Positions 37,777 through 39,322 of a DNA stretch of 39,322 bases are shown piece after piece. Within the stretch, counting starts at the first letter, position 1; each line of letters starts with the position of its first letter. The translations under genes were made by a program, and so were the position numbers. This stretch comes from Dehalococcoidia bacterium. Its GTDB lineage: Bacteria > Chloroflexota > Dehalococcoidia > Lucifugimonadales > Lucifugimonadaceae. The stretch covers positions 45,591-84,912 of the forward strand of contig JAKUNJ010000007.1 of NCBI GenBank assembly GCA_022451965.1, written 5' to 3'. The notes below the pieces were generated by a model. That model saw only the letters and a list, made by a program, of their open reading frames with translations, did not search any database and had not been told where the DNA came from.

Positions 37777-38289
37777 ATGAATATTAGTAACTACATTAGA
37801 TCTATAGACAATTTTCCTTCAAAAGGAATAATTTTTAGAGATATATCTCCAATATTTCAAAATCCTAATATTCTTAATTATGTAGTAGAAGAAATGAATA
37901 AATATATTGATAAATTGAAGCCCGACTATCTTGCAGCTATTGATTCAAGGGGTTTTTTACTGGGATCATCTGTGGCATATTCTTGTAAAATCCCACTTAT
38001 ATTAATTAGAAAAAAAGGCAAACTACCCCCACCTATAATATCTGAGAAATATTCATTGGAATATGGGGAAGATTACTTAGAATTGTCTTCAGATTTAGAT
38101 CTTTTAGGAAAAAAAATAGTAATCATTGATGATGTATTAGCTACAGGAGGAACTGTTTTGGCTGCAATTAAGCTACTTACAAGACTTGATGCTAGTGTAT
38201 GTGGATTAAGTTTTTTAATTAATTTAAGGGATATTGTTAGGCCACAAGAATTAAGAGATTATTCAATAAATTATCTAATTTCTTATTAG
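37777..38289 (+). CDS. apt: Adenine phosphoribosyltransferase
   Basis: 170 residues, type I PRTase. The N-terminal hood MNISNYIRSIDNFPSKGIIFRDISPIF matches Apt; the PRPP site is VIIDDVLATGGT (115-126), with Asp118-Asp119; DSRGFLLG (56-63) and LIRKKGKLPP (76-85) are Apt-specific. It makes AMP from adenine and PRPP in purine salvage, complementing guaC. No Shine-Dalgarno; TATAAT at 37761-37766 is 10 nt from the ATG, so the leader is probably a few nucleotides or none. The 128-nt gap after it is AT-rich and has a 12-A run (38386-38397). Confidence 0.95.
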   Translation: MNISNYIRSIDNFPSKGIIFRDISPIFQNPNILNYVVEEMNKYIDKLKPDYLAAIDSRGFLLGSSVAYSCKIPLILIRKKGKLPPPIISEKYSLEYGEDYLELSSDLDLLGKKIVIIDDVLATGGTVLAAIKLLTRLDASVCGLSFLINLRDIVRPQELRDYSINYLISY

Positions 38290-38417
38290 TTAAAAATTAA
38301 CTTTTTGTTACATTTTCTAAAAATTGACTTAATTGATTATTTAATTCTTATATTTTAATTCTTCAGATGTTATTGTTTCTTTATCAAAAAAAAAAAACTT
38401 TTTACAAGGAAGTAGTT

Positions 38418-39322
38418 ATGAAAATTTTTCTTAAATTATTTTTGGTTTCGGTTCTAATGTTTTCAGTTTTTGCCTGTTCTGATGAGGCAGAAGAAATTGT
38501 TGAGTCAATCACTGAAAGTACTTCTTCAGAATCTGAGGAAAAAGAAGCTCATTCTGATGAGGATGATCACGGTGAGGATGAAGATCATGAACACGATGAG
38601 GATGAAGATCATGAACACGATGAGGATGAAGAACATGATCATGATGAGGAAAAAGAAGCTCATTCTGATGAGGATGATCACGGTGAATTTAAATTTGGAT
38701 TAATACTTGTTGGTCCTAGAGATGATAAAGGGTGGTCACAAGCTCATTTTGAAGGTGGAGAATATGTAGAAGAAATAACTGGTGGAGAGATGATAGTAGC
38801 TGATTTTATTAATCCAGCTGATAGTCCTAATCTAACTGTTGATCAAGTAGCTTCAGACATGATCGATGAAGGAGCACAACTTATAATTGCAACTTCAGAT
38901 GATATGAAAGATGGTATTCTTGCTGCTGCGGAAATGTATCCAGATATACCTATGATTTGGGCATCAGGGGATAGTGCCAAAGCTGATGGTAAGGGATATA
39001 GAGAGGATCTTGAAAATTTGGGAAATATTATGGGAAGAATGGAATATGGAAAAATGATAGCTGGTTGTGCAGCTGCCCTCAAAACTAAGACGGGTCATAT
39101 AGGATTCCTTGGCCCATTAATAAATGATGAGACTAGAAGATTAACAAATGCTGCTTACCTTGGAGCTAAACATTGTTACAAAGGAGAGAATGAACTTAAG
39201 TTTGATGTAATATGGATTGGATTTTGGTTCCATATTCCTGGAGTGACTTCTGATCCAACTCAAGTAACAAATGAGTTCTTTGATGCAGGAGCAGATGTTG
39301 TTATTTCTCATATCGATACTCC
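38418..39322 (+). CDS. BMP-family lipoprotein with His/acidic-rich linker, 3' end cut
   Basis: 301 codons to the window edge, no stop. AAGGA precedes the ATG at 38418. Lipoprotein signal: MKIFLKLFL, hydrophobic core, lipobox VFAC with Cys20. Residues 45-89 are almost only Glu, Asp and His, with ten His, including three E-D-E-x-H-x-H-D units (53-76) flanked by copies of AHSDEDDHGE. From 91 the sequence FKFGLILVGPRDDKGWSQAHFEGGEYV matches the BMP (basic membrane protein/Med) substrate-binding fold of nucleoside-type ABC transporters; VDQVASDMIDEGAQLIIATSDDMKDGI and GHIGFLGPL agree. Family members bind nucleosides or similar. The His-rich segment probably binds Zn or another divalent metal. The rest of the transporter should lie just beyond the window. 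Confidence 0.85.
   Translation, partial: MKIFLKLFLVSVLMFSVFACSDEAEEIVESITESTSSESEEKEAHSDEDDHGEDEDHEHDEDEDHEHDEDEEHDHDEEKEAHSDEDDHGEFKFGLILVGPRDDKGWSQAHFEGGEYVEEITGGEMIVADFINPADSPNLTVDQVASDMIDEGAQLIIATSDDMKDGILAAAEMYPDIPMIWASGDSAKADGKGYREDLENLGNIMGRMEYGKMIAGCAAALKTKTGHIGFLGPLINDETRRLTNAAYLGAKHCYKGENELKFDVIWIGFWFHIPGVTSDPTQVTNEFFDAGADVVISHIDT
38534..38686 (+). repeat. 42-bp direct repeats in the BMP gene
   Basis: Two identical 42-bp copies (38534-38575 and 38645-38686), in frame and 111 bp apart, encode EEKEAHSDEDDHGE at both ends of the His-rich region. Perfect identity at the DNA level indicates recent duplication or gene conversion. The region between holds the 24-bp tandem repeat. Confidence 0.9.
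38574..38645 (+). repeat. 24-bp tandem repeat, three units
   Basis: Units at 38574-38597, 38598-38621 (identical to the first) and 38622-38645 (two differences). Each codes for E-D-E-D/E-H-E/D-H-D. A slippage-prone minisatellite within a coding region, so unit number may vary between strains. Confidence 0.9.

Follow-up and report, generated by a model that had tools for sequence, protein, structure and literature searches.

At the end of the 39,322-nt stretch of DNA that we analyzed (the window; G000:C7:45591-84912, within a 1.25-Mb draft genome) lies the gene of a BMP-family lipoprotein with a low-complexity linker, directly preceded by a purine salvage gene. The following features were located there:

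37777..38289, + strand: apt, adenine phosphoribosyltransferase gene directly upstream of the BMP gene (NCBIfam NF002636, 195 bits, cut-off 125; PF00156)
38406..38412, + strand: ribosome-binding site AAGGAAG for the ATG at 38418, by sequence reading
38418..39322, + strand: BMP-family (PnrA-like) lipoprotein gene, predicted to bind a purine (PF02608), cut by the window end
38418..38477, + strand: lipoprotein signal peptide MKIFLKLFLVSVLMFSVFAC with lipidated Cys20, by sequence reading; Cys at the same place in orthologues
38478..38687, + strand: 70-residue linker (tether) from Cys20 to the binding domain, by translation; highly variable among orthologues
38535..38687, + strand: His/Asp/Glu-rich tract of 51 residues (10 His, 33 Asp/Glu), the last part of the linker
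38534..38575, + strand: 42-bp direct repeat, copy 1
38645..38686, + strand: 42-bp direct repeat, copy 2, with the sequence of copy 1 (identity 100%)
38563..38650, + strand: 24-bp tandem array, 3.7 copies, TRF score 141
38688..39322, + strand: BMP ligand-binding domain, N-terminal part inside the window; closest solved structures by sequence 3s99 (E 4.9e-23) and AtzT 6pi5 (E 1.7e-14)

On the extended contig the BMP frame, starting with the ATG at 38418, is complete and encodes 452 amino acids (L002 4009-5367); this copy contains a single N in a codon that must be Pro. A Pfam scan placed the protein in PF02608 (E 2.8e-14, 53.3 bits, cut-off 24.1), and by reading, residue 20 in the context SVFAC (codon 38475-38477) is the lipidated Cys of a lipoprotein, which is kept in orthologues. 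The BMP-family lipoprotein named in the initial annotation is thereby confirmed. Named relatives matched by the protein are marine MAGs labelled Chloroflexi or Dehalococcoidia, and the genome may be of SAR202 type. AlphaFold models from shallow alignments (mean pLDDT 44.6 and 57.5) were too poor for fold comparison, and the linker shows low pLDDT within such a poor model.

AtzT binds guanine with a KD of 110 nM and adenine with 2.5 uM, and the Brucella BMP lipoprotein 3s99 contains a modelled adenine according to the AtzT paper (PMC6834077). Both share with the BMP protein whole-domain similarity and the purine-pocket residues, a match of the domain only, with their linkers outside the comparison. 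In the alignment Tyr45, Ser97, Glu165 and Trp194 of AtzT correspond to Trp17, Ser71, Glu149 and Trp181, whereas Asn218 and Asn220 of AtzT are replaced by His209 and Asp211, as in 3s99. All mapped pocket residues were invariant in the five of five relatives compared. With the purine-sandwiching aromatics and the hydrogen-bonding residues present, the protein would belong to the purine-binding BMP subgroup, and in view of the APRT and HGPRT-like neighbors described below the likeliest ligand is a purine nucleobase.

The genes of the extended contig follow each other on one strand in the order apt, BMP gene, RbsA-type ATPase, BPD_transp_2 permease, BPD_transp_2 permease and HGPRT-like phosphoribosyltransferase, and after the latter an enolase-superfamily gene, a DAO-type oxidoreductase gene and an amino-acid-type SBP gene continue on the same strand. 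It had been proposed initially to extend the contig and look for ATPase and permease genes; both types were found just downstream of the BMP gene, where the double-cassette ATPase and the two permeases (L002 5420-8857) make up the set of a BMP-type ABC importer. The ATPase, the two permeases and the HGPRT-like gene adjoin the BMP gene in relatives too, as judged from the order of the reading frames and from end sequences. In L069 and L074 the neighbor of the cluster is a gene for an IMP dehydrogenase/GMP reductase domain protein. The same component families are clustered in PnrA/BmpD-type nucleoside ABC importers. The cluster described here differs from those in the His/acid tether and in the adjoining APRT and HGPRT-like genes, because of which we favor a nucleobase rather than a nucleoside as ligand. 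No metal-related gene was found in the cluster by the Pfam scan of the extended contig, and a search of the 19-kb locus gave neither a purine riboswitch nor any other Rfam family. A separate SBP_bac_3 gene was seen just downstream of the BMP operon in the studied genome (L002 11823-12920).

Turning to the linker, the His/Asp/Glu stretch with its ten His had been recognized correctly in the initial annotation, but with 45 residues it had been taken a little too short; the identical 42-bp direct repeats around a 24-bp tandem repeat were confirmed. A pair of perfect 42-mers at a distance of 111 bp is not a chance event, and the second-best separate tandem array in the window reached a TRF score of only 50. 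The repeat units are non-independent evidence, as they overlap inside one low-complexity tract. From the genome a sample of about 0.45 Mb was read. Among 104,001 residues of its long reading frames the background was 1.57% His and 6.26% Asn, yet the tract holds 10 His and no Asn; His is thus strongly enriched against base composition and is not a by-product of AT-richness. In ten tracts compared, His positions often differed between repeat units, with Asp or Glu instead. Such a low-complexity tract is common to the BMP protein, the ZnuA/cluster A-I zinc-binding proteins and ZrgA, but the BMP protein lies outside the ZnuA family: the Pfam scan gave PF02608 only, with no match to PF01297, and the ZnuA of this genome is a separate gene at C6. 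Identity with ZrgA (NF047873) was rejected as well, since this sole NCBIfam match (23.9 bits, cut-off 185) covered only residues 17-92, almost wholly linker, and is composition-driven. Our literature search on His-rich BMP linkers and tether peptides found nothing relevant.

For comparison we collected orthologues, with 49 of 247 sampled genomes of the order giving a BMP match and nine genus members containing the protein. While the orthologue domains are 61-88% identical, their linkers are His/acid, Pro-Ala, PTAE, Ser-rich or almost absent, so that the His-rich linkers proposed for a survey of homologues exist in some of them and not in others. A His/acid linker is found in six of the nine genus members (G000, G006, G003, G004, G002 and G001, the last read from DNA upstream of a broken frame) and, outside the genus, as EEHSEEKHS repeats in two f32 genomes; the other genus members have a single His (G007) or none (G005 and G008). 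The remaining linkers are PAPAAP (G152 and G085), PTAE (G036), SSDSDSSSS (G181 and G173), short Ser/Gly (g60) or about ten residues long (G128), all tract lengths being approximate because repeats break contigs in draft genomes. The His/acid state changes at least twice on the domain tree by parsimony, on a single gene tree with some weak branches and with all genomes draft, and on this reading the tract type would have been gained at least twice in BMP proteins.

Some arrangements in these relatives are described here for themselves. One lipoprotein of genus g10 combines an SBP_bac_3 domain with a BMP domain behind it (L019, L020, L021, L026 and L110; Pfam-tested in L020). Its anchor-proximal linker is of the His/acid type in L020 and L021 but built of GPPPKK repeats in L019, L026 and L110; such a predicted joining of a purine binder to an amino-acid-type binder is unusual. 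An 863-aa lipoprotein frame with two BMP domains was seen at L024 244-2832 (G238), and at L108 (G177) a similar frame that breaks off where the contig ends. The domain tree groups the BMP proteins of L012-L014 (family f34, genus g67) with those of the studied genus, which suggests either that the operon was transferred horizontally or that there is a problem with the taxonomy.

Two pattern searches of the studied genome found real His/acid coding tracts in the BMP gene and in a Peripla_BP_2 (FecB/BtuF-type) lipoprotein gene, which adjoins a FecCD permease and an ATPase. The ZnuA gene, broken by the contig end, has a loop with repeat-built GHDDHE, and a short tail rich in His was seen on a formate-dehydrogenase-like frame. 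Linkers of the Peripla_BP_2 orthologues are His/acid, VEKPAEK, EVKVIEEVKV, QMRMEKE, Pro-rich or absent. DNA substrings shared among the BMP, Peripla_BP_2 and ZnuA tracts were no longer than after synonymous-codon shuffling, which speaks against an obvious copying of a DNA tract between the three genes. The ZnuA proteins of the genus (L096, L177-L183) carry long repeat-built His/Asp/Glu loops, in some cases C-terminal tails too, and in several of the drafts the loop is interrupted by the end of a contig. A truncated frame at L073 10524-11072 with the end GHDDHDGHDDHDKHDDHN overlaps a ZnuA match near a frame reading like a Fur-type regulator, and the studied genome encodes a lipoprotein that contains a collagen-like Gly-X-Y stretch (L095 9086-9739). 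A correspondence between ZnuA presence and His linkers, apparent inside the genus where G005 and G008 lack both, failed in 28 further genomes: ZnuA was present with Pro-Ala linkers, and none was seen in the His-linker genomes G229 and G247 (63-69% complete).

Taken together, we consider it probable that the protein belongs to a purine, most likely nucleobase, ABC importer and carries a fast-evolving flexible tether; import as the direction of transport and purine as the ligand are both what we infer. The membrane-anchored BMP domain would catch a purine outside the cell for import by the downstream double-cassette ATPase and the two permeases, and the APRT and HGPRT-like enzymes of the adjacent genes would turn it into nucleotide. 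The conservation of domain and operon does not extend to the linker, for which a flexible tether is the best reading: strongly charged, it would give the domain reach from the lipid anchor to the permease, and expansion of DNA repeats would make and remake it quickly. To judge from the orthologues, which use Pro-Ala, PTAE, Ser-rich or nearly no linkers, the BMP protein does not depend on what exactly the tether is made of. By analogy with any His/acid tract the linker can probably bind divalent metals weakly, which would not be how the importer works. Three observations count against this explanation, namely that no purine riboswitch was found, the His enrichment far above base composition and the separate building of same-type tracts in at least three binding proteins of the genome, including the zinc-binding ZnuA. 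Such recurrence exceeds the prediction for a freely drifting spacer, and together with the enrichment it leaves real weight on a putative auxiliary metal binding, which is possible.

In its explicit form this alternative states that the His/acid tethers of several abundant binding proteins in this lineage keep Zn, Fe, Ni, Co or Cu close to the membrane and pass it on to ZnuABC or to another uptake system, or protect from excess, with the purine importer working independently. The strong over-representation of His in the tract speaks for it, as do the one type shared by the BMP, Peripla_BP_2 and ZnuA-loop tracts with no sign of DNA copying, and the recurrence of that type through at least two gains in BMP proteins, in Peripla_BP_2 of g1 and g10 and in the SBP_bac_3-BMP fusions. 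ZrgA is a precedent, with a His-rich loop that provides extra zinc sites in vitro and is dispensable (PMC9820375). However, close orthologues keep the domain but drop the tract or substitute non-metal repeats, ZnuA does not track the tract across the 28 further genomes, and the operon is without a metal gene, so that we regard this only as a tentative second explanation. It is doubtful whether one may go further and assume a lineage-wide, shared extracellular metal-collecting layer, with His/Asp/Glu tethers repeatedly evolved on unrelated surface binders (purine, corrinoid- or iron-chelate-type, and amino acid-purine fusions) and feeding ZnuA or other uptake.

Slippage of GAT, GAA and CAT codons alone might also yield acidic-His tracts with no selection on His, and the perfect 42-bp duplication with its tandem units, the free variation of length and sequence, and the frequent swaps of His with Asp or Glu in the ten tracts are as expected for such a neutral spacer. 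Drift from Asp/Glu codons should, however, give Asn, Tyr and Gln too, and His far outnumbers all three, although Asn is four times commoner than His in the genome background; moreover, binding proteins that are not related to each other came by similar tracts independently. We therefore consider pure slippage improbable. What had been named initially as the mark of a neutral spacer, homologues without a His-rich linker and a freely varying repeat number, was largely observed here, with the enrichment of His and the recurrence of the tract type standing against it. Metal-coupled or metal-sensing nucleoside uptake, in which linker-bound metal gates ligand capture or docking, has the closeness of the tract to the ligand-binding domain in its favor, but is very unlikely given orthologues with intact pocket and operon and no His linker, and no metal gene in the cluster. 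Any metal mechanism specific to the BMP protein was rejected because of the orthologues without the tract.

For the ideas first raised on this protein, these results mean that buffering or sensing of metal, or its coupling to uptake, is largely undercut by homologues without a His linker and by the purine-salvage neighborhood, and that an 'undescribed type of metal-linked' binding protein finds no support. An auxiliary metal role keeps its place, since tracts of Asp, Glu and His have appeared repeatedly on binding proteins of this lineage that are unrelated to each other, the true zinc protein ZnuA among them. With purine import on a flexible tether as the preferred explanation, the binding protein itself would be fairly ordinary for purine uptake, on a leash whose place is taken in close relatives by leashes of quite another kind. 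For an uncultured group of marine Chloroflexota our analysis provides an operon of purine uptake and salvage that is well supported. Lipoprotein tethers of this group would be renewed very rapidly through the expansion of DNA repeats, with no change in the binding domain. That tethers of the His/acid type recur poses a small, testable puzzle on metal capture in the ocean.
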